A DNA stretch of 64,000 bases. It comes from Porticoccaceae bacterium (GTDB lineage Bacteria > Pseudomonadota > Gammaproteobacteria > Pseudomonadales > Porticoccaceae). Below the pieces are notes generated by a model. The model made no database searches. It was not told the DNA's origin and saw only the letters and a program-made list of their open reading frames with translations. Below are positions 1-9,999 of the stretch, in pieces; position 1 is the stretch's first letter, and every line of letters starts with the position of its first letter. The translations under genes were made by a program, and so were the position numbers. Location of the stretch: the NCBI GenBank assembly GCA_024644595.1, contig JAHEHL010000004.1, forward strand, positions 201,224 to 265,223, read 5' to 3'.

Positions 1-334
1 CGACGTGTTCTTTGCCCTGCGGTGTCTGATGAATATGCAGTGCGCGCGCCTTGCGCTGAGTTTCCTGCGCCGCCTGAAGCGGACAGGATTCGCCGGCCTG
101 ATCACAGGGAACCTGATAGCCGTGGGATACATTAAAACAATTGGGTTTCTGTTCCAGCGCGAGTTCGCCGAAAGCATCGCGGTACTGGTTGTTGTAGGCC
201 AGAATTTCATAGTTGGCAGAGACTAATATCGCCGGGCAGTCGTAACCTTCGAGCATAGCCCCTAAATTGGCGCCCAAATTGGCACCTGTGCTGGCCTCAT
301 GATGGGGAGCACGGTCAGACTGTATTAGATCCAT
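1..334 (-). CDS. fisR: FisR-like sigma-54-dependent activator, N-terminal part (runs off the window)
   Basis: The minus strand reads open from an ATG at 334 to the window edge, giving 111 residues. The segment looks like a PAS-type sensor domain (residues about 28-105, with 'ILAYNNQYRDAF'). Three cysteines, C66, C77 and C84, are spaced 11 and 7 residues apart. This is the spacing of C53/C64/C71 in the sensor domain of FisR of Cupriavidus, which reacts with sulfane sulfur and then activates sigma-54 transcription of pdo-sqr. The AAA+ and Fis DNA-binding domains would lie outside the window. The gene is divergent from pdo/sqr and is followed by a sigma-54 promoter, which supports the role strongly. 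The Shine-Dalgarno sequence is weak. The N-terminus carries a small repeat (GANLGANLGA). The identity rests on cysteine spacing and context, not on an alignment. Confidence 0.75.
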   Translation of the reverse strand, partial: MDLIQSDRAPHHEASTGANLGANLGAMLEGYDCPAILVSANYEILAYNNQYRDAFGELALEQKPNCFNVSHGYQVPCDQAGESCPLQAAQETQRKARALHIHQTPQGKEHV

Positions 335-345
335 AGAACTGCCAT

Positions 346-377
346 TTTTGGTAATTGTTTTGCCAATTTTGGCAATT
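346..377. promoter_or_regulatory. Candidate FisR upstream activating sequence
   Basis: TTTTGGTAATT (346-356) and TTTTGGCAATT (367-377) are direct repeats exactly 21 bp apart, two helical turns, so both present the same face. The second overlaps an inverted repeat, TTGCCAA (360-366) and TTGGCAA (369-375), with a 2-bp spacer. The site is about 100 bp upstream of the sigma-54 promoter and just upstream of the fisR start. That is the usual place for an enhancer bound by a bacterial enhancer-binding protein, and it could also give autoregulation. Confidence 0.5.
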
Positions 378-445
378 AGTTTCACCACTGTCAATTTGGT
401 TTTCCATAATCGCAGGTAAATCAAGGCCTCCAGAACCGTTTAAAG

Positions 446-463
446 TTGGCATAGTTAATGCAA
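446..463 (+). promoter_or_regulatory. Sigma-54 (-24/-12) promoter of the sulfide-oxidation operon
   Basis: TTGGCATAGTTAATGCAA has GG at 448-449 and GC at 460-461, separated by exactly 10 bases as RpoN promoters require, with the flanking bases TTGGCA and TGCAA close to consensus. Transcription should begin near 473, about 85 bp before pdo. The downstream half is duplicated: AGTTAATGCAAT occurs at 453-464 and again at 469-480. The second copy lacks its own -24 GG at the right distance, so only the first is a good promoter. Confidence 0.7.
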
Positions 464-556
464 TACCCAGTTAATGCAATAGAACGTCTATACAAGGCGT
501 GGTTAAAAAATAGACATAAAAGCGCAGGTATCAGCTGACCGCAAAGGAGTAATCTT

Positions 557-1450
557 ATGAACAATCTGGCTCATCCATCCGAGATGCAACTAAATCCTGA
601 AGTCGCGGTTTTTTTCGATCAACAGAGCAACACTTTTTCCTATGTTATTCAGGACCCGACATCGGACGCCTGTGCCATTGTCGATTCAGTTCTCGATTTT
701 GACTACCCTTCCGGCCACTTTAGTACTGCCGGTGCCGATGCAATCAAAGAGTATATTCAGGAGCGCAACCTGCGAGTGGAGTGGCACATCGAGACCCATG
801 TTCACGCCGACCATCTGTCAGCAGCGCCGTATCTACAAGAGCACCTCGGCGGCAAGCTGGCTATAGGTGAGCAGATCATTACTGTGCAGGAGACCTTCGG
901 CAAGCTATTTAATGAAGGCACCGAATTTCAACGCGACGGCTCGCAGTTTGATCGCCTTCTCAAGGACGGTGATAGCTACACCATCGGCAATATGACCGCT
1001 ACCGCCATTCACACCCCCGGCCACACTCCCGCCTGCATGGTTCATATTGTCGGCAATGCCGCCTTTGTCGGTGACACCATCTTTATGCCGGATGCCGGCA
1101 CTGCTCGCGCCGATTTTCCCGGCGGCAGTGCACATGAGCTCTATCGGTCGGTGCAGAAAATTCTCGCTCTGCCGCCAGAAACGCGACTCTACCTGTGCCA
1201 CGATTACGGCCCCAACGGTCGTGAGGTGGATTATCAGACAACCGTCGCTGAACAGCGCCAACACAATATCCACGTCAATAAAAATATTGATGAGCAGCAG
1301 TATGTTGAAATGCGCGAAACCCGCGATAAGACACTTGGCATGCCCAGTCTTATCATGCCTTCAATACAGACCAATATGCGTGGTGGGCACTTCCCCGAAG
1401 CTGAAACAAATGGCGTGGTCTACCTCAAAGTACCTATTAATGTTTTTTAA
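557..1450 (+). CDS. pdo: Persulfide dioxygenase (ETHE1/Blh-type metallo-beta-lactamase fold)
   Basis: This non-haem iron enzyme would oxidise glutathione persulfide, the product of sulfide:quinone oxidoreductase, to sulfite and glutathione. The 297 residues have the metallo-beta-lactamase layout. The metal motif THVHADH has H81, H83, D85 and H86. HTPGH contains H156, and GDTIF contains D173. ETHE1 binds a single iron with two histidines and an aspartate drawn from these positions. 'DFPGGSA' and 'LCHDYGPNGR' near residues 190-220 are typical of the bacterial PDO/Blh group. AAAGGAG at 543-549 sets the ATG. It is the first gene after the sigma-54 promoter, 78 bp before the SQR fusion. Generic MBL hydrolase is the alternative, but the SQR neighbour makes PDO much more likely. 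Confidence 0.88.
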   Translation: MNNLAHPSEMQLNPEVAVFFDQQSNTFSYVIQDPTSDACAIVDSVLDFDYPSGHFSTAGADAIKEYIQERNLRVEWHIETHVHADHLSAAPYLQEHLGGKLAIGEQIITVQETFGKLFNEGTEFQRDGSQFDRLLKDGDSYTIGNMTATAIHTPGHTPACMVHIVGNAAFVGDTIFMPDAGTARADFPGGSAHELYRSVQKILALPPETRLYLCHDYGPNGREVDYQTTVAEQRQHNIHVNKNIDEQQYVEMRETRDKTLGMPSLIMPSIQTNMRGGHFPEAETNGVVYLKVPINVF

Positions 1451-1528
1451 CGGGTCAAACCAACGCTATAGTGAATCCGTTAAAGACAATCATAAGATAA
1501 ACAGAGTTAGCCAGGAGCAACTATAAAA

Positions 1529-3130
1529 ATGAATATCACTACTCTAACGAATCAAGTTTCGGTCTCTGAACAAATTCACACCGACGACATCCAGACACTG
1601 GCCTCCCAGGGTGTTCAGATAATTGTCTGCAACCGACCCGACGGTGAAGCCGCCGATCAGCCAAGTTTTGCTGAGATTAGTGCCGCAGCTGCGACACAGG
1701 GTATCAAAGCGGTTAACTTACCCTTTACTGCCGGTCAGATGAATGAAGATCAGGCTCTTGAGTTTGCCGAGCTACTGGCAAGCGGAGAGCGAATCCACGC
1801 CTATTGCCGCACGGGCAACCGCTCGACACAGATCTTTAACGCCGCTGCAGGCGACGCAGCTCCCGTGGCAGCAGCACCTCAACAAACACCTAAAAAAGCC
1901 GCCGCCACCTATGACGTGGTTATTATCGGTGCCGGATCCGGAGGCATCGCTGCCTGTTCAAGCCTGCTAAAGCGCGATCAAACACTGCGTATCGCACTGA
2001 TTGATCCCTCCAGCAAACACTATTATCAGCCCGGCTGGACGATGGTTGGCGGCGGGGTCTTTGACGCCAAAAGCACAGAGAGAGAGACCGCCCAGCTGGT
2101 CGATCGCCGTGCCAGCTTGTTAAACAATCGTGTTACTCAGGTGGTGGCCGATGCCAACAAAGTGGTGCTCGATGATGGCAGTGAAGTCCATTACAAGCAG
2201 CTGATTGTAGCGCCTGGCCTGGTCATTAACTGGGCCGCCATTGAAGGCCTTGAGGAGACTCTGGGCAAAAATGGTGTGACCTCTAATTATCGCTATGATC
2301 TGGCACCCTACACATGGGAGCTGGTTCAGCAAACCGAAAAAGGCACCGCCATCTTCACCCAGCCACCGATGCCGATTAAATGCGCCGGCGCCCCGCAGAA
2401 AGCGCTTTATCTATCCGCCGATTACTGGCTGAAAAACAAACGTTTAAACAATATCAATATCGACTTCTGCAATGCCGGTGGCGCACTGTTTGGGGTGCCC
2501 GCCTATGTCGATGCGTTGATGTCCTACATTAAAAAGTACCGTGCCGATCTCAGTTTTAACCACAATCTGGTCAAGGTTGACGGCGCCACTCGTAAAGCCT
2601 GGTTTGATGTGACTGATGCCGACGGCAACAAGACCCAAGTGTGTAAAGCGTTCGATATGCTGCATGTCTGCCCTCCTCAGAGTGCACCAGACTTTATCCG
2701 CACCAGCGGCCTCTCCGATCAGGCTGGCTGGCTGGATGTCAACCCGCAGACCCTGCGTCACAACCACTACAGCAATATCTGGGGCCTCGGCGATGTCATG
2801 AATACCACCAACGCCAAAACCATGGCCGCTGTGCGCAAGCAGGTGCCAGTGGTCGCCACCAATATCTGTGCTGTGCAGGCCGGCAAAGACCCACAAGCAG
2901 CCTATGATGGCTATGGCTCCTGCCCATTAACGGTAGAGCGCGGCAAAATTGTTCTCGCCGAGTTCTGTTACGGCGGACGGGTGGCACCCACCTTCCCGTC
3001 CTGGCTTAACAACGGCGTCAAGCCCACTCGACTGGCCTGGTTATTGAAATCCGTGGGACTGCCTTTCGTCTACTGGAACATGATGCTGAAAGGTCGCGAG
3101 TGGTTTACTGACTGTCCGGCGGAAAAGTAA
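1529..3130 (+). CDS. sqr: DUF442-sulfide:quinone oxidoreductase fusion (type II SQR)
   Basis: Two domains are joined. Residues 1-105 are a DUF442 (TIGR01244) domain of the protein-tyrosine-phosphatase/rhodanese-like fold, with the loop CRTGNRS at C93-S99. Residues 125-533 are a type II SQR like mitochondrial SQOR. They include the FAD motif VVIIGAGSGG, 'YYQPGWTMVGGG', 'KCAGAPQK' (C285), 'GSCPL' (C465) and the C-terminal 'FVYWNMMLKGREW'. C285 and C465 match human C201 and C379, the redox pair, so the enzyme should be competent. SQR oxidises sulfide, reduces quinone at the membrane and hands the sulfane sulfur to an acceptor. DUF442 is usually separate or fused to the dioxygenase (Blh), and could relay the persulfide. 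AGGAG at 1513 supports the start. SulP begins 3 bp after the stop. Confidence 0.88.
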   Translation: MNITTLTNQVSVSEQIHTDDIQTLASQGVQIIVCNRPDGEAADQPSFAEISAAAATQGIKAVNLPFTAGQMNEDQALEFAELLASGERIHAYCRTGNRSTQIFNAAAGDAAPVAAAPQQTPKKAAATYDVVIIGAGSGGIAACSSLLKRDQTLRIALIDPSSKHYYQPGWTMVGGGVFDAKSTERETAQLVDRRASLLNNRVTQVVADANKVVLDDGSEVHYKQLIVAPGLVINWAAIEGLEETLGKNGVTSNYRYDLAPYTWELVQQTEKGTAIFTQPPMPIKCAGAPQKALYLSADYWLKNKRLNNINIDFCNAGGALFGVPAYVDALMSYIKKYRADLSFNHNLVKVDGATRKAWFDVTDADGNKTQVCKAFDMLHVCPPQSAPDFIRTSGLSDQAGWLDVNPQTLRHNHYSNIWGLGDVMNTTNAKTMAAVRKQVPVVATNICAVQAGKDPQAAYDGYGSCPLTVERGKIVLAEFCYGGRVAPTFPSWLNNGVKPTRLAWLLKSVGLPFVYWNMMLKGREWFTDCPAEK

Positions 3131-3133
3131 ATT

Positions 3134-4858
3134 ATGTGGAGACGCCTGCTCAATGCTGTGCCCGCCGCTGCCTGGCTAGGCGGCTATAACAGCGCCACAT
3201 TCAAGGCAGATCTGGTCGCCGGTGCAGTGGTGACGATGATGCTGATCCCGCAGTCGCTGGCCTATGCACTGCTCGCCGGGCTGCCTGCGGAAACTGGCCT
3301 CTATGCCAGCATCTTTCCGCTGATCGCCTATGCCATCTTTGGCAGTAGTCGAACCTTATCCGTTGGCCCGGTAGCAGTGGTTTCACTGATGACCATGGTC
3401 GCTCTAAGCAAAGTGGTTGAGCCCGGCTCTGCCGATTATCTCGGTGCGGCCATTGTGCTGGCTTTGCTCACTGGTGGCATCTTGCTGATCATGGGAGTTT
3501 TTCGGCTCGGCTTTGTCGCCAACTTTTTATCTCACACCGTGGTCTCGGGATTTATAACCGCCTCAGGCATTCTGATTGCCCTCAGTCAGCTGCGACATAT
3601 TTTGGGTATATCAGCACATGGCGATACGATTCCTGAAATTCTCTCCACACTGGTTGCCAATCTCAACGGCATTAACAGCGTCACCGCGGCGCTGGGTCTG
3701 TTGGTGCTGGTCTTTTTATTCTGGGCCCGCTCAGGTGTTGCCCCCCTACTCAGCCGTTTCGGTGTCGAGCGAAACAATGCTGCACTGATCGCCAAAGCGG
3801 CACCGGTAATCGGCGTTGTTGTCACTATCCTCTGTGTCTGGGGCTGGCGTCTGGACAGCCAGGGTGTGGCCATCGTCGGCACTATTCCCGCCGGACTGCC
3901 AACACTTATATGGCCCACCATGACTCTAGAACTGGTCGAAAAACTCTGGCTTCCAGCCCTGAGCATTGCCATTATTGGCTATGTCGAATCAGTTTCAGTA
4001 GGCAAAACTCTGGCGGCAAAAAAGCGCGGCAGCATTAATGCTAATCATGAATTGTTTGGGCTTGGCGCCGCGAATATCGCCTCGGCCTTTTCCGGCGCTT
4101 TCCCGGTTACCGGCGGACTTTCTCGCTCTGTTGTCAATTTCGATGCCGGCGCAGTCACTCAGGCCGCAAGCATCTATGCTGCAATCGGCATTGCTCTGGC
4201 ATCCCTCTACCTGACCCCGATGCTCTACTTTCTGCCCAAGGCAACACTGGCGGCCACTATTATTGTTGCCGTATTATCAATTGTCGATTTTTCGATTCTG
4301 AAAAAAACCTGGCACTACTCCAGCAGCGATTTCCGCGCGGTGATGATTACCATTCTTGGCACACTGCTGTTTGGTGTTGAAGTCGGTGTTATCTGCGGCG
4401 TGATGCTATCGATCGGCCTCTATCTCTACCGCACCTCGGTACCCCATGTTGCCGAGGTTGGTCTGGTGGAAAACACTCAGCACTTTCGCAATGTGCGCCG
4501 CTACCATGTCACCACCAACGACAAGATTCTCAACCTGCGGGTCGATGAAAGCCTGTTTTTTGCCAACGCCTCGTTTCTGGAAAATTTGGTCTACAGCAAG
4601 GTTTACGAGAACGATCAGATCGCCCATGTGGTGTTGATGTGCAGCGCGGTCAACGAAATTGATTTCAGCGCATTGGAAGTCTTGGAAATGATTAATCAGC
4701 GTCTCAACGAGCAGGGCATCAAATTACATCTCTCGGAAGTCAAGGGTCCAGTGATGGATGCCCTGCGCTATTCCGGCTTTGGTGACCATCTGTGCGGCAA
4801 TATTTATCTGACCCAATTTGAGGCATTTGAAGATTTGACCCGTTCCGCCCAATACTAA
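3134..4858 (+). CDS. SulP-family inorganic anion transporter with STAS domain
   Basis: This 574-residue inner-membrane protein has the SulP signature near the N-terminus ('LIPQSLAYALLAGLPAETGLY'), about 10-14 hydrophobic segments, and a cytoplasmic STAS domain from about residue 440 ('NEIDFSALEVLEMINQRL'). SulP proteins move sulfate, bicarbonate or other anions. Only 3 bp separate it from the SQR fusion, so the two are certainly co-transcribed. By context it should handle the oxidised sulfur product (sulfite, thiosulfate or sulfate), or supply a counter-ion. Many related operons carry a TauE/SafE-type exporter in this place. The substrate cannot be read from the sequence, and direction of transport is an inference. 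Confidence 0.82.
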   Translation: MWRRLLNAVPAAAWLGGYNSATFKADLVAGAVVTMMLIPQSLAYALLAGLPAETGLYASIFPLIAYAIFGSSRTLSVGPVAVVSLMTMVALSKVVEPGSADYLGAAIVLALLTGGILLIMGVFRLGFVANFLSHTVVSGFITASGILIALSQLRHILGISAHGDTIPEILSTLVANLNGINSVTAALGLLVLVFLFWARSGVAPLLSRFGVERNNAALIAKAAPVIGVVVTILCVWGWRLDSQGVAIVGTIPAGLPTLIWPTMTLELVEKLWLPALSIAIIGYVESVSVGKTLAAKKRGSINANHELFGLGAANIASAFSGAFPVTGGLSRSVVNFDAGAVTQAASIYAAIGIALASLYLTPMLYFLPKATLAATIIVAVLSIVDFSILKKTWHYSSSDFRAVMITILGTLLFGVEVGVICGVMLSIGLYLYRTSVPHVAEVGLVENTQHFRNVRRYHVTTNDKILNLRVDESLFFANASFLENLVYSKVYENDQIAHVVLMCSAVNEIDFSALEVLEMINQRLNEQGIKLHLSEVKGPVMDALRYSGFGDHLCGNIYLTQFEAFEDLTRSAQY

Positions 4859-4945
4859 CGTACTGCTAAGAACTAAGACTCAGGTCAGCATTAAGGTACA
4901 GCCCAACAAACATTTATAACTCAACAGCAGTCTACAGAGGAAAAT

Positions 4946-6322
4946 ATGGAACTCGATCCATTTGTGCTATCCCGCATCCAGTTTGCCGCCAACATTAGTT
5001 TTCATATCCTTTTTCCCAGCATCACTATCGGACTTTGCTGGTTTTTGCTGTTCTTTCGCATCCAGTATCTGCGCAGCGGCGACAAGTCCTGGGAGTACGC
5101 CTATTTTTCCTGGGTGAAAATTTTCGCTCTGACTTTCGCTTTGGGTGTTGTCTCGGGTATTACCATGAGCTTTCAGTTTGGTACCAACTGGCCGGGCTTT
5201 ATGGAGCGTGTCGGCAATATCGCCGGCCCGCTACTGGGCTATGAAGTACTGACCGCGTTTTTTATGGAAGCCTCATTTCTCGGCATCATGCTATTTGGTA
5301 AAGATAAGGTCAGTGATCGTGTGCATATGATTGCGACCTTTCTCGTCGCGATCGGCACAACCTTTTCGGCATTCTGGATTCTCAGTCTCAACTCCTGGAT
5401 GCAGACACCGGTAGGCTACGAGATTCGCGATGGCGTTTTCTTTGCCACCGATTGGTGGGCGATCGTCTTTAACCCCTCGTTCCCCTACCGCATGACCCAT
5501 ATGCTAATCGCCAGCCTGCTGACCAGCGCCTTTATGATCGCCGGCATCAGCGCCTGGCGTGTGCTCAAGAGCAGCGACGGCCCCAGCACCTGGCTGCTGT
5601 TGCGTGTTAGCCTGATCTCCGCAGCCCTGCTTACGCCGCTGCAAATTTTTGTCGGCGACCTTCATGGGCTCAATACACTCGAACATCAGCCGGCCAAAAT
5701 CGCCGCCATGGAAGCGATCTGGGAGACGGAAAAAGGAGCTCCGTTTACCTTGATTGGCCTGCCCAATGAAGAAACGCGCACGACTGATTACGCAATCAAA
5801 ATTCCTAAAGCCGCCAGTTTGGTACTGACCCACGAAATCGATGGTGAACTGCCTGGTCTGGATCAGTTTGAAGGCGAGCATCCACCAGTCGCCTTGGTGT
5901 TCTGGTCCTTCCGTGTAATGGTGGGTATGGGCTGCCTGATGCTATTGATCAGCTGGATCGGCTGCTATCAGCTTTGGCGTCGCAAAACCTTGGGGAAAAC
6001 CTATCTGATGGCGTTGGCGCCGATGGGTTTCTCCGGCTGGATTGCAGTACTCGCTGGCTGGTGGGTCACCGAAATTGGGCGTCAGCCGTGGGTAGTTTAC
6101 GGCGTGCTCCGGGCCAAAGATGTTGTCGCCAACCACCCGCCGGCAGTGTTGGTCGGATCTTTGACCGGTTACTTGGCCCTGTACGGATTTCTTTTGGTGG
6201 CCTATATCGGCGCGTTGAACTATCTGTCCTCAAAGGCACCCCGCTCCGCGGTATTAGTGCATGAATATGGACTCAACTCATCCGACACTGATTCCAGACC
6301 AGCAACACAGGAGCAGAAATAA
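4946..6322 (+). CDS. cydA: Cytochrome bd ubiquinol oxidase subunit I (CydA/CioA, short Q-loop)
   Basis: Subunit I of the bd quinol oxidase carries the haems. H20 in 'NISFHILFP' is the high-spin haem ligand position, H185 in 'FPYRMTHML' is the haem b558 ligand, and 'GRQPW' is the invariant motif near the quinol site. At 458 residues it lacks the long Q-loop insert of E. coli CydA and resembles the cyanide-insensitive CioA group of Pseudomonas. bd oxidases are known to keep working in sulfide that blocks haem-copper oxidases. It starts 87 bp after SulP, with CAGAGG upstream and no terminator visible between, so it probably belongs to the same sulfide-responsive unit. cydDC assembly genes are not in the window. 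Confidence 0.9.
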   Translation: MELDPFVLSRIQFAANISFHILFPSITIGLCWFLLFFRIQYLRSGDKSWEYAYFSWVKIFALTFALGVVSGITMSFQFGTNWPGFMERVGNIAGPLLGYEVLTAFFMEASFLGIMLFGKDKVSDRVHMIATFLVAIGTTFSAFWILSLNSWMQTPVGYEIRDGVFFATDWWAIVFNPSFPYRMTHMLIASLLTSAFMIAGISAWRVLKSSDGPSTWLLLRVSLISAALLTPLQIFVGDLHGLNTLEHQPAKIAAMEAIWETEKGAPFTLIGLPNEETRTTDYAIKIPKAASLVLTHEIDGELPGLDQFEGEHPPVALVFWSFRVMVGMGCLMLLISWIGCYQLWRRKTLGKTYLMALAPMGFSGWIAVLAGWWVTEIGRQPWVVYGVLRAKDVVANHPPAVLVGSLTGYLALYGFLLVAYIGALNYLSSKAPRSAVLVHEYGLNSSDTDSRPATQEQK

Positions 6323-6323
6323 T

Positions 6324-7316
6324 ATGGAACAATTTTTACCCATTGCTTTTATGCTGGTTATGGGACTGGCGCTGCTAATCTATGTTTTGCTCGATGGTTA
6401 TGATCTTGGGGTTGGCGCACTGTTGCCACTGGCGACAGATGATGAAAAAGATCTGATGATCGCCTCAATCGGTCCGTTTTGGGATGCCAACGAAACCTGG
6501 ATTGTGCTCGGCGTCGGTGTATTGTTAATTGCCTTTCCAGCAGCCCATGGCGTCATTCTCACCGCATTGTATATCCCGATCACCATTATGCTATTTGGTT
6601 TGATCCTCAGGGGCGTGGCATTCGATTTTCGAGTCAAGGCTGGCGATATTCACAAGGCGCGCTGGAACCGCCTCTTTTTCCTCGGTTCAGTGATTGCGTC
6701 GGGTTCTCAGGGCTGGATGCTTGGATCTTATATCACTGGCCTGCAGTCCGGACTCACCAACACCCTGTTCTCATTCCTTATCGCCCTGACACTGCCCGCG
6801 CTGTATGTAATCCTGGGCGCCTCATGGCTAATGATGAAAACCGAGGGCGCACTGTTTGATAAAGCCATCAAGTGGGCCCAGGCGGCGATTATCCCCATGG
6901 GTGTAGGCTTACTGTTGGTGTCGATCGCCACACCAATCGTCAGCCAGAGCATTGCCGACAAGTGGTTTGTGCTGCCCAATGCGATTGGTCTGATGCCGAT
7001 TCCGTTGAGCTGTATGGTAGTTTATGCGGGGCTACTATGGATCTTGCGTCGCCCGGATTTGCTGGCCCGTGGTTACGCCTGGACAGTGTTTGCCGGCCTG
7101 GTACTTATCTGCCTGATGGCATCACTGGGCCTAGCCTACAGCCTGTTCCCCTATATTGTTATCGACCAACTCACCATCTGGGAAGCAGCTGCGGCGACAG
7201 AATCGCTACAACTGATTTTCTACGGTGTCGCAATTACCCTGCCGGCGATTATTGGCTACACCATTTTTATCTATAAAATCTTTCACGGCAAAGCGAGTGA
7301 GCTGTCTTATGAGTAA
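6324..7316 (+). CDS. cydB: Cytochrome bd ubiquinol oxidase subunit II (CydB/CioB)
   Basis: This 330-residue membrane partner of CydA has about eight to nine helices, opening with 'LPIAFMLVMGLALLIYVLLD' followed by 'GYDLGVGAL', and carries the family motif 'GPFWDANETWIV'. The ATG at 6324 has CAGGAG at 6308-6313 and starts 1 bp after the cydA stop, giving tight coupling. A longer in-frame reading from 6261 would overlap cydA by 62 bases and add 21 non-conserved residues, so I rejected it. No small CydX/CydZ-like frame is evident after it. Confidence 0.9.
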   Translation: MEQFLPIAFMLVMGLALLIYVLLDGYDLGVGALLPLATDDEKDLMIASIGPFWDANETWIVLGVGVLLIAFPAAHGVILTALYIPITIMLFGLILRGVAFDFRVKAGDIHKARWNRLFFLGSVIASGSQGWMLGSYITGLQSGLTNTLFSFLIALTLPALYVILGASWLMMKTEGALFDKAIKWAQAAIIPMGVGLLLVSIATPIVSQSIADKWFVLPNAIGLMPIPLSCMVVYAGLLWILRRPDLLARGYAWTVFAGLVLICLMASLGLAYSLFPYIVIDQLTIWEAAAATESLQLIFYGVAITLPAIIGYTIFIYKIFHGKASELSYE

Positions 7317-7440: not shown

Positions 7441-7478
7441 TAGAAAAAAGTATTTAAAATAATAAAAAAGAGGTGAGC

Positions 7479-8315
7479 ATGTCTTTTAGCGTGACTGCAT
7501 CTGATGGCGCCTGTGGCGCCGAAATCACCGGCATCGACTTATCCCGGCCACTCGACAACCAGACTATTAAAGCGATTCGTCAAGCCTGGCTTGAACACCA
7601 TGTTGTGTGTTTCCCTGATCAAACCATCGATGATGACGACCTTGAGCGCTTTAGCCAATATTTTGGCGAGTTTGCTGGTGACCCATATATTGAGTCGCTA
7701 AAAGACCGCAAAAATATTATTGAACTACGACGCACGGCTGATGAGCAGACACCAATCTTTGCAGAAGCCTGGCACACCGACTGGAGCTTTGGCGAAAAGC
7801 CTCCAGCGGCCACTATTCTCTATGGCATAACCATTCCACCCCACGGCGGTCACACCAGCTTTATCAACCAGCATAAAGTGCTAGAGGCAATGCCGGAAGA
7901 GCTGTTCGATCGTCTTAAAGATAAAGTTGCTCTGCACTCTGCGCAAAAAGGCTATGCGCCGGACGGCCTCTACGGTGAGCAGGAAAAAGACGCCAACCGC
8001 GGCTTTAAAATCAACTTCTCTGACTCGGCCTATGCCGTGCAACCACACCCAATTATTCGGCAACATCCCGAGACCGGCGAAAAGTGTATCTACGGCTGTT
8101 TTGGTTACATTATTGGTATTGAGGGCATGGATGAAAGCGACGCTATGGCGCTGCTGGAAGAACTCTACCTGTGGCAGACTCGAGAAGAGTTTCAGTATCA
8201 ACACCACTGGAAGGCCGGCATGCTGATTATGTGGGATAACCGCTCGGTGCTGCATAAAGCCAATGGCGGCTATCAGGGTTATGAGCGAGTTTTACATCGC
8301 ACTGTTGTCGGTTAA
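7479..8315 (+). CDS. TauD/TfdA-family Fe(II)/2-oxoglutarate dioxygenase
   Basis: This 278-residue enzyme is of the taurine dioxygenase/TfdA type. It has the HxD iron motif in 'AWHTDWSF', the distal histidine in 'NRSVLHKA', and the 2-oxoglutarate-binding arginine in 'RVLHRTVVG' at the very C-terminus. The family hydroxylates small sulfonates, phenoxyacetates, sulfate esters, carnitine precursors and other carboxylates with 2-oxoglutarate and O2. The substrate is not evident. Taurine or alkylsulfonate would suit the sulfur genes on the left, but the acyl-CoA ligase to the right suggests a carboxylate. I use the ATG at 7479 because GAGGTG lies just upstream; an in-frame GTG at 7473 overlaps that ribosome-binding site. 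The gene probably has its own promoter at 7347-7376. Confidence 0.82.
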   Translation: MSFSVTASDGACGAEITGIDLSRPLDNQTIKAIRQAWLEHHVVCFPDQTIDDDDLERFSQYFGEFAGDPYIESLKDRKNIIELRRTADEQTPIFAEAWHTDWSFGEKPPAATILYGITIPPHGGHTSFINQHKVLEAMPEELFDRLKDKVALHSAQKGYAPDGLYGEQEKDANRGFKINFSDSAYAVQPHPIIRQHPETGEKCIYGCFGYIIGIEGMDESDAMALLEELYLWQTREEFQYQHHWKAGMLIMWDNRSVLHKANGGYQGYERVLHRTVVG

Positions 8316-8327
8316 TCAAAGTAAGTA

Positions 8328-8363
8328 AAAACTAGTAGGTTAAAACTAGCGTAATAAAACTAG
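8328..8363. repeat. Three AAAACTAG direct repeats with 14-bp period
   Basis: AAAACTAG occurs at 8328-8335, 8342-8349 and 8356-8363, each exactly 14 bp apart, in the 103-bp gap between the dioxygenase and the CoA ligase. The intervening six bases differ, so the repeated octamer looks selected or recently duplicated. It may be a regulator-binding array or a slippage product in AT-rich spacer. There is no origin-type context. Confidence 0.55.
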
Positions 8364-8418
8364 CCTGTTAAAAAAGTGTACCTAAAAAAAGCATAAAAAT
8401 AACAAGGGGAACAAAAAC

Positions 8419-9999
8419 GTGATTCCATTGGATAAACTTACCTGTGTAGCGGATATCACCCGCTATCAAGCCAGCATCAATGGCGAGCGTATCGCCCAGT
8501 TTTTTGAAGGTCGCGAAACCAGCTACAGCGAACTTGACCGGCGTGCCAGCCGAATTGCCAACGGCCTGATTGCAGCACAATGCACGCCCGGCACCCGTAT
8601 CGGCTATCTGGGTAAAAACAGCGACTACTACTTTGAAGTAATGAGTGGCGCCGCCAAAGCCAATGTTGTCATCGCCGCGGTCAACTGGCGGCTGGCGGCG
8701 CCGGAAATCGACTACGTGCTGACCAATGCCGAAGTCGAAATTCTCTTTGTCGGCCAAGAATTTTATTCACTGATTGAACAGCTAGCCCCATCCCTCACTA
8801 ATGTCCGAATGATCATTGCAGTCGACGGCGCAGAAGGCCATAGCCCAAAACAATGGCTCTCTTATACCGACTGGCGCGACCAGCAATCTGATCGTGACCC
8901 AATGTTGCCCATCGCTATGGATGACGATGTTATCCAGCTCTACACCAGCGGTACCACCGGCCACCCCAAAGGCGTTCAGCTCACCAACAGCAATTATCTC
9001 GACCTGCTGGACCAAGCCGCTAATGGAGGCTGGGGTGACTGGGTTGAAGGTGAGGCAAGCATTGTTGCTATGCCAATCTTCCATGTTGCCGGGGTAAATA
9101 TTGGCATGCTCGGGCTCGCTCAGGGCCTGAAAAATATCGTCCTACGGGATATCGATCCGGTGGTTATCTTAAATCTGTTGGAACAGCACCGTATTCGTTA
9201 TGCCTTTTTTGTTCCGGCGGTGATTCTATTTTTAAATTCAGTTCCAGATGTACGTCAACGGGATTTCTCCAATCTGGAGATGATTCTCTATGGCGCCAGC
9301 CCGATCTCGCAAGAGGTGCTGCTGACCGCAACGGATATCTTTAAGTGCGAGTTCTGCCAGGTTTATGGACTCACCGAAACCGCAGGCGCTGGCACCATCC
9401 TCATTCACGAAGATCACGATCCGGCTCGAGGCAAACTGCGCTCTTGCGGCAAGCCTGCCGCTACCGCGCAAATCCGTATTATTGATGATAAAGGACAGGA
9501 TATGCCCGCCAATCAAGTTGGTGAGATACTCTATCGCTCTGGCAGTGTCATGAAGGGCTACTGGAAAAATGACGAGGCCACCGCAAAGACAATTATCGAT
9601 GGCTGGTTTTACACCGGCGATGCCGGCTATCTCGATGACGAGGGCTACCTGTTTATCCACGACCGCATCAAGGACATGATTGTCTCCGGCGGCGAAAACG
9701 TCTACCCAGCCGAAGTGGAAAATGCCCTTTTCAGCCATCCCGCCATTGCCGATGTCGCCGTGATCGGTGTGCCTGACGAAAAATGGGGCGAAGCGGTGAA
9801 AGCCGTTGTGGTCTTAAAACCCGGCGCCACCGCCAACCAAGACGATATTATAAGCCACGCCAGAAAACACATCGCCGGATACAAGGTGCCAAAAAGTGTC
9901 GATTTTACCGACGCCCTACCGCGCAATCCGACCGGAAAGTTACTCAAGCGAGAGTTGCGAGCACCCTACTGGCAGGAAGGCGGAAGGCAGATTAATTAA
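8419..9999 (+). CDS. Acyl-CoA synthetase (AMP-forming, class I ligase)
   Basis: This 526-residue ANL-superfamily ligase activates a carboxylic acid through an acyl-adenylate and then transfers it to CoA. Motifs are the P-loop 'YTSGTTGHPKGV' (about residue 175), 'YGLTETAGAG', 'GWFYTGDAGYLDDEGY', the hinge 'DRIKDMIVSGGENVYP', and the catalytic lysine region 'PRNPTGKLLKREL' near the C-terminus. It most resembles medium/long-chain or aromatic fatty-acyl ligases; the exact acid is not readable. It starts with GTG; AAGGGG at 8404-8409 is well placed. A clear terminator follows. It is probably co-transcribed with the TauD-like dioxygenase, 103 bp upstream, so the pair could hydroxylate and activate one substrate. 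Confidence 0.85.
   Translation: MIPLDKLTCVADITRYQASINGERIAQFFEGRETSYSELDRRASRIANGLIAAQCTPGTRIGYLGKNSDYYFEVMSGAAKANVVIAAVNWRLAAPEIDYVLTNAEVEILFVGQEFYSLIEQLAPSLTNVRMIIAVDGAEGHSPKQWLSYTDWRDQQSDRDPMLPIAMDDDVIQLYTSGTTGHPKGVQLTNSNYLDLLDQAANGGWGDWVEGEASIVAMPIFHVAGVNIGMLGLAQGLKNIVLRDIDPVVILNLLEQHRIRYAFFVPAVILFLNSVPDVRQRDFSNLEMILYGASPISQEVLLTATDIFKCEFCQVYGLTETAGAGTILIHEDHDPARGKLRSCGKPAATAQIRIIDDKGQDMPANQVGEILYRSGSVMKGYWKNDEATAKTIIDGWFYTGDAGYLDDEGYLFIHDRIKDMIVSGGENVYPAEVENALFSHPAIADVAVIGVPDEKWGEAVKAVVVLKPGATANQDDIISHARKHIAGYKVPKSVDFTDALPRNPTGKLLKRELRAPYWQEGGRQIN

Follow-up and report, generated by a model that had tools for sequence, protein, structure and literature searches.

Does a cytochrome bd oxidase that lies beside the genes for sulfide oxidation share their regulator, or is it merely their neighbor? 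The question is raised by the left end of a 64,000-nucleotide stretch of a Porticoccaceae genome (here called the window; G000:C1:201224-265223, from a genome of 2.38 Mb that is 98.9% complete). A gene for a FisR-type sigma-54 activator on the minus strand, the N-terminal part of which occupies positions 1-334, is followed on the plus strand by pdo (557-1450), DUF442-sqr (1529-3130), sulP (3134-4858), cydA (4946-6322), and cydB (6324-7316). As the preliminary description of this DNA had proposed, all of these genes are present in that order and on those strands, and their family signatures (Pfam and TIGRFAM matches to the open reading frames [ORFs]) agree. We propose, with a probability of roughly 0.82, that a single FisR/sigma-54 unit couples sulfide oxidation to a short-Q-loop bd oxidase of the sulfide-resistant type.

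The sigma-54 -24/-12 element has the consensus TGGCACG-N4-TTGCW, and a promoter-like site of this kind, TGGCATAGTTAATGCA, lies on the plus strand at 447-462, ahead of pdo. It scored 14.9 with approximate weights and was equaled in 2 of 200 Markov shuffles, and the genome carries rpoN (one Sigma54_DBD match, 1.3e-65). Upstream of this site are two putative FisR sites with a spacing of 21 within the pair, i.e., dyad 1 (TGCCATTTTTGGTA, 340-353), with one mismatch to TGYCA-N4-TGRCA, and dyad 2 (TGCCAATTTTGGCA, 361-374), with no mismatch to TGYCAWWWWTGRCA; comparable pairs are found in relatives. The motif was first spotted by eye. Throughout, a dyad pair was counted when the tandem TGYCA-N4-TGRCA dyads had at most three mismatches over the pair and lay within 500 bp, and a sigma-54 site was counted when it scored at least 13 within 300 bp of the gene start. 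A scan of the genome itself for TGYCAWWWWTGRCA-like dyads with at most one mismatch returned 57 sites, compared to 17 for the reversed control, and single dyads thus seem over-represented in the whole genome, dyad 2 being the only site without a mismatch among the genome matches listed. Since single dyads are common, the tandem pair alone was used as evidence.

If cydAB belongs to the FisR regulon, FisR/sigma-54 signals are expected ahead of whichever gene comes first. Loci in which cydAB and the sulfide-oxidation genes are linked fall in two layouts, order A, which is that of the window (FisR and, divergently, pdo-sqr-sulP-cydA-cydB), and order B (FisR and cydA-cydB-pdo-sqr-sulP), most of them having cydAB first. 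The order-B set comprised 27 loci, namely, those of 23 linked genomes, G339, G322, Spongiibacter thalassae, and UBA4495; Zhongshania aquimaris (L083), which shows the complete layout, is another named member and was dropped from the count as identical to G391. The Spongiibacter stretch yielded no regulator, and sulP was not seen in G257 or G195. A sigma-54 site precedes cydA in 25 of the 27 order-B loci (exceptions, G265 with 9.5 and G195 with 9.8), in none of the nine order-A loci, and in one of 18 genomes with unlinked cydA (G074). Twenty such control loci had been fetched, and two of them, G339 and G322, proved to be FisR operons and were shifted to the order-B set. Ahead of pdo, five of the seven order-A loci with a regulator carry a sigma-54 site. 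Dyad pairs are distributed in the same way: 24 of the 27 order-B loci have one ahead of cydA, compared to none of the nine order-A loci and none of the 18 unlinked loci (two of these 18 show a pair with four mismatches), and five of the seven order-A loci with FisR have one ahead of pdo. The dyads of a pair are 21 to 22 bp apart in most loci, 18 in G333 and G350, and 27 in G400. The promoter architecture therefore shifts with the gene order.

Order-B loci in which the cydB-pdo gap exceeds 200 bp carry a second dyad pair ahead of pdo in every case (6/6: G182, G097, G357, G144, G226, and G265). Among the 21 order-B loci with smaller gaps, none has a second pair, Spongiibacter showing one with four mismatches. 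After the motif had been fixed, 20 further sqr loci were taken from the same set of 390 genomes. A dyad pair precedes the first gene in all six of those with a FisR-like neighbor (more than 50% identity) and in none of the 14 without one (Fisher 2.6e-5); in this comparison, G277, whose regulator is 35% identical, was counted as lacking FisR, and a weak pair in G254 precedes sqr rather than the first gene, pdo. The corresponding sigma-54 scores reach at least 13 in 4 of 6 FisR loci versus 0 of 14 others. The earlier pdo/sqr loci without cydAB had given the same picture, with a pair ahead of pdo in 3/3 loci that have a FisR neighbor (G037, G050, and G074) and in 0/8 that do not, one of these eight, G025, being covered by only 192 bp upstream.

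The linkage itself was followed across the order, in which 390 genomes were searched. CydA matched 228 of them at an E value of 1e-60 or better and SQR matched 135 at the same threshold. Among the best 150 of the 228 CydA genomes, 77 also have SQR, and 29 of these 77 carry both genes within 15 kb. All 29 have cydA and sqr on the same strand, with sqr downstream of cydA in 23 and upstream in 6. Chance linkage, by our own estimate, is roughly 1% per genome, so that about one case would be expected, and the linkage observed is not explained by chance. Close to the 80 best named CydA loci, an SQR match of at least 30% identity was found in five cases within up to 9 kb on either side. A CydA tree of 140 rows, built by a quick method with SH-aLRT as the only measure of support, places 36 of the 37 rows from orders A and B in a single well-supported group. 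This group has 58 rows and also includes 21 unlinked rows and Pseudohongiella, and the linkage state changes at least 12 times in the tree. G155 has the pdo-sqr-sulP-cydAB series with a CydA that falls outside this main group. G334 and G385 (L243 and L247) carry DUF442-sqr directly followed, on the same strand, by a different cydAB lineage, whose CydA (520 to 547 residues, 35 to 39% identical over the best stretch) is E. coli-like by eye; no FisR neighbor or dyad pair was found at these two loci. SQR has thus been paired repeatedly with different oxidase lineages, which argues for a functional connection.

Within the genus, cydA is present in 7 of 37 genomes (6 of 35, and then G331 with it and G215 without it), and sulP lies 25 to 87 bp upstream of cydA in all seven. 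Unlinked cydAB in close relatives, which would have spoken against the operon as first described, was therefore sought and found in none of the 37. The regulator was matched in 4 of 35 same-genus genomes (E value of 1e-110); it adjoins the operon in G331, and the contigs of G013 and G032 stop short of the position where it would lie. SQR is present in G016 and G025, which have neither regulator nor cydA; G016 retains sqr-sulP, and G025 retains pdo-sqr. The preliminary description had regarded cydAB in a sulfide module as unusual. A one-direction FisR/sigma-54 module that includes cydAB is indeed what we find, but it is not peculiar to this genome, since several families of the order share the linkage.

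Several observations weigh against a shared FisR/sigma-54 unit. In the order, 48 of the 77 genomes with both genes lack linkage within 15 kb, and in the class outside the order, 1 of 11 genomes with both genes links them, in a divergent arrangement (G672). The coupling is hence not general, and we do not claim a general pattern; some links may be concealed where draft contigs end. In order A, G169 lacks a dyad pair and its sigma-54 site scores 10.8, the pair in G001 has four mismatches, and G400, besides its wider dyad spacing, has its sites farther upstream, with a sigma-54 score of 9.4 inside the 300-bp limit and of 16.3 at -321, beyond it. G155, also of order A, shows no FisR in the stretch examined. 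Among order-B loci, G115, G195, and Spongiibacter, the last also without FisR in its stretch, have no dyad pair within 500 bp. The sigma-54 sites at the six second pairs are weaker (4.9 to 12.9 within 300 bp), none reaching 13, and two of the six follow-up FisR loci also remain below that score (G035 with 12.8 and G125 with 8.3). Finally, many of the genomes are close kin, so the counts are not independent, and the probabilities derived from them overstate independence.

What the operon would do was read from the homologues of its products. PDO has a metallo-beta-lactamase fold (Lactamase_B) with HVHADH at the HxHxDH site, and its best solved matches are 9g8t and 4ysk/4ysl (E values of 1e-111 to 1e-107), ETHE1 (4chl) being matched as well; it is thus predicted to be an ETHE1-like persulfide dioxygenase. 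The sqr product carries a DUF442 (BLH_phosphatase) domain at residues 3 to 104, fused to a type-II-like sulfide:quinone oxidoreductase whose closest solved relative is the human mitochondrial SQOR (5e-92). Its KCAGAPQK and SCPL stretches, which we take to carry the redox cysteines of SQR, align with the human enzyme. The sulP gene encodes a SulP anion transporter with a STAS domain (Sulfate_transp, 9e-99; TIGR00815 above its cutoff), the substrate probably being sulfite, thiosulfate, or sulfate. SulP had been pointed out as an unusual addition to such a locus, which it is not: sulP follows sqr in 16 of the 20 follow-up sqr loci, nearly all of them without cydAB.

CydA (PF01654, 6e-161) has 458 residues; its match to the Geobacillus enzyme 5doq is a single stretch, whereas those to the two E. 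coli enzymes are each split in two. This pattern fits a short-Q-loop (CIO-like) bd quinol oxidase, as the preliminary description had labeled it, 5doq presumably representing the short-loop type and the E. coli enzymes the long-loop type. His20, His185, Met325, Glu100, Glu108, Lys251, and Glu256, which we take from the E. coli numbering to be the heme ligands and quinol-site residues, are invariant in 13 of 13 aligned homologues. The second subunit, CydB (PF02322, 2.9e-78), most likely starts at the ATG at 6324, one base past the cydA stop, rather than at the ATG at 6261 chosen by the ORF caller, because aligned relatives begin there. Frames of 632 to 798 residues in three genomes suggested a CydA-CydB fusion, which was rejected: cydA and cydB are separate ORFs at these loci, and the long frame arises from sequence beyond the gene that lacks stop codons. 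The cydA gene is the only PF01654 match in the genome, which also encodes two heme-copper oxidases read from ORFs, one aa3-like with coxB adjoining and one cbb3-like with ccoO adjoining. CydAB is therefore the only bd oxidase found and a third terminal oxidase, and the earlier suggestion that the cell switches its terminal oxidase is better worded as adding a third.

Taken in order, the FisR-type activator would sense persulfide or sulfane sulfur by a cysteine triad, bind the dyad pair at 340-374, and drive sigma-54 RNA polymerase at 447-462 to produce a single pdo-sqr-sulP-cydAB message. SQR would oxidize sulfide and pass the electrons to ubiquinone, the fused DUF442 domain and PDO would handle the persulfide and yield sulfite, and SulP would move an anion, probably the product sulfite, thiosulfate, or sulfate. 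CydAB would pass quinol electrons to oxygen under conditions that would poison the aa3 and cbb3 enzymes. Sulfide concentrations of up to 58 uM leave the bd enzymes of E. coli unaffected, whereas the 50% inhibitory concentration for bo3 is 1.1 uM (PMC4815019). The short-loop oxidase CioAB protects Chromobacterium violaceum from sulfide (PMC11837568). On the strength of such homologues, the oxidase of the window may be expected to resist sulfide as well, and a single operon would then provide both the removal of sulfide and a respiratory outlet that withstands it.

The same genes may be read in terms of energy. Under this alternative, which we regard as possible though the less probable of the two, the oxidase serves mainly as an electron sink for SQR, and the benefit of coexpression would be energy gained from sulfide when oxygen is low, not the protection of respiration. 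SQR reduces quinone and CydAB oxidizes quinol, and a link through the quinone pool has been predicted for Acinetobacter baumannii (PMC7315123). However, the FisR operon of G339 and G322 (L205 and L206) reads cydA-cydB-pdo-sulP and lacks sqr. Both genomes are outside the 135 that matched SQR at 1e-60, a more distant SQR being possible, and their cydAB retains FisR-type signals. These sqr-less FisR operons favor protection over a mere electron sink. We further lean toward the view that the persulfide sensor directly owns a sulfide-resistant bd oxidase. In this one order, paired TGYCA-N4-TGRCA enhancer dyads and sigma-54 would make the oxidase a core member of the FisR regulon, with cydAB leading the operon in some genomes, having no sqr beside it in others, and perhaps lying at an unlinked locus, and SQR would have been paired with bd oxidases of different lineages more than once. 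The unlinked locus is that of G074 (L211), in which cydAB lies apart from the FisR operon, with a sigma-54-like site of 14.0 at -110 and imperfect dyads visible by eye that the script did not count; in the tree, its cydA groups as sister with an order-B cydA, and control in trans is possible.

Sensing of sulfur was considered from the regulator itself. Its gene spans C1:200199-201557 (1,359 bases), of which about 1,025 lie outside the window (C1:200199-201223), and it was therefore read from the genome as a sigma-54 activator of about 452 residues. The start is most likely at 334 and not at the TTG at 424, as the alignment with the regulators of G001 and G023 begins only at residue 31. The sigma-54 interaction domain is clear (Sigma54_activat, PF00158, 1.2e-64), and GAFTGA is present in 37 of 38 aligned regulators, including that of the window; the alignment counts one genome twice (G391 and Zhongshania L083). 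No helix-turn-helix family was among the Pfam matches of the regulator at an E value of 0.001, and its C terminus reads like one. Cysteines of the PAS-like N-terminal part at residues 96, 107, and 114 (numbering of the 482-residue ORF) are kept in all 38 aligned regulators, with spacings of 11 and 7 that are presumably those of the triad in Cupriavidus FisR. By analogy, the regulator may sense persulfide or sulfane sulfur through this triad.

That the activator answers another signal, such as nitric oxide, oxygen, or thiols, and that the operon is a general oxidative or nitrosative module, seems improbable to us. The match to a PAS-like domain (PAS_4) is weak and not diagnostic, C. violaceum CioAB gives protection against nitric oxide and cyanide as well (PMC11837568), and the FisR of A. 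baumannii responds to sulfide without the Cupriavidus cysteines (PMC7315123). Set against these points is the invariant triad; according to a review, it is by three conserved cysteines that the FisR of Cupriavidus detects reactive sulfur (PMC9774590).

Between sulP and cydA, no terminator-like site and no plus-strand sigma-70-like site were found in the gap at 4859-4945, and its RNA folds less stably than shuffled versions do on average (z of +1.18), so that no stable hairpin is apparent. Nor does a sigma-54-like site or dyad pair occur before cydA in any of the nine order-A loci. The preliminary description had noted the lack of a terminator ahead of cydA, which these scans bear out, and it had named a separate cydAB promoter as evidence to the contrary; no sigma-70-like promoter or terminator in the gap emerged from the scans and the folding, and the signals before cydA in order B are themselves of the FisR/sigma-54 kind. 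The signal-free gap, the short gaps in kin (among six relatives in the genus, 25 to 26 bp in five and 70 bp in the other, with 87 bp in the window), and promoter signals that track the first gene would fit a transcript that continues from sulP into cydA. That cydAB is merely downstream, served by a separate promoter within the gap that answers to oxygen or redox state, and that the neighborhood is a by-product of gene-block transfer is very unlikely: the gap of the window is longer than that of five relatives and the scan covers only some promoter types, but the gap holds no sigma-70-like site or terminator, order B has FisR/sigma-54 signals directly ahead of cydA, both halves carry a dyad pair when they are more than 200 bp apart (6/6), and the linkage is seen with several CydA lineages.

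A single FisR/sigma-54 unit with cydAB would extend systems that are already known in parts. To our knowledge, the FisR operon of Cupriavidus pinatubonensis includes neither cydAB nor SulP, and we know of no sulfide operon that contains the E. coli bd enzymes. Cupriavidus resembles the window in that a three-cysteine activator controls a sulfide-oxidizing pdo-sqr through sigma-54 (Li et al. 2017, cited in PMC9774590), and cytochromes bd-I and bd-II of E. coli resemble the enzyme type of the window as sulfide-insensitive quinol oxidases (PMC4815019). Another similar system is that of A. baumannii, in which a divergent sigma-54 FisR drives the sulfide-induced pdo1-sqr-tauE-hsd, with pdo, sqr, and an anion exporter gene (PMC7315123). 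There, however, cydAB is also sulfide induced but lies outside the FisR operon at a separate locus (A1S_1433-1434), the exporter is TauE rather than SulP, and FisR lacks the Cupriavidus cysteines, whereas the regulator of the window has the triad. C. violaceum CioAB shares the short Q loop and the protection against sulfide and differs in its operon, cioR-cioA-cioB, which is under the repressor CioR and quorum sensing and was induced only by cyanide among the tested compounds (PMC11837568). The loci of G334 and G385 share the adjacency of sqr and cydAB on one strand and differ in the CydA lineage and in having no FisR or dyads that we could find.

Among the open-access matches listed, we found no report of cydAB within a FisR operon. 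The available parts of PMC12856154, PMC10100682, PMC8014003, PMC12345210, PMC12170894, PMC8657789, PMC8148161, and PMC5322542 describe no FisR or sqr operon that includes cydAB, and the word "sulfide" is absent from the main text of the last of these, a survey of bd gene clusters. The parts are known, and the sulfide induction of an unlinked cydAB has been published. If our reading is correct, the detoxification of sulfide and the rerouting of respiration belong to one regulatory unit. The available part of the A. baumannii study names no regulator for the sulfide-induced cydAB (PMC7315123), and here a candidate link is visible in the DNA. FisR/sigma-54 signals ahead of whichever gene leads, cydA or pdo, provide a concrete predicted FisR binding motif, and Zhongshania aquimaris, a cultured marine bacterium with the complete order B, allows a direct test. 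The layout may also serve to recognize heterotrophs that are equipped to keep respiring when exposed to sulfide.

The limits of the operon were also considered. A tauD gene and an AMP ligase gene downstream of cydB (7473-9999) were rejected as members, as neither is near the operon in G002, G023, and G331, the same-genus stretches that reach past cydB. A CydX-like small subunit downstream of cydB is not supported, the sole candidate by eye being an 18-codon frame that overlaps the cydB stop. Separately, four genomes of family f44 have, downstream of the sigma-54 site and ahead of the first gene, a 29-codon frame encoding a hydrophobic, single-span peptide; it precedes cydA in order B at L175, L176, and L179 and pdo in order A at L184:5052-5138. 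The peptides are 41 to 46% identical between the two layouts and could be a small oxidase or membrane subunit. On the other side, to the left of the window and adjoining the 3' end of the regulator gene (L002:3991-7139), the ORFs read as genes for an apparent phosphonate-type binding protein, an ABC ATPase, and a permease.

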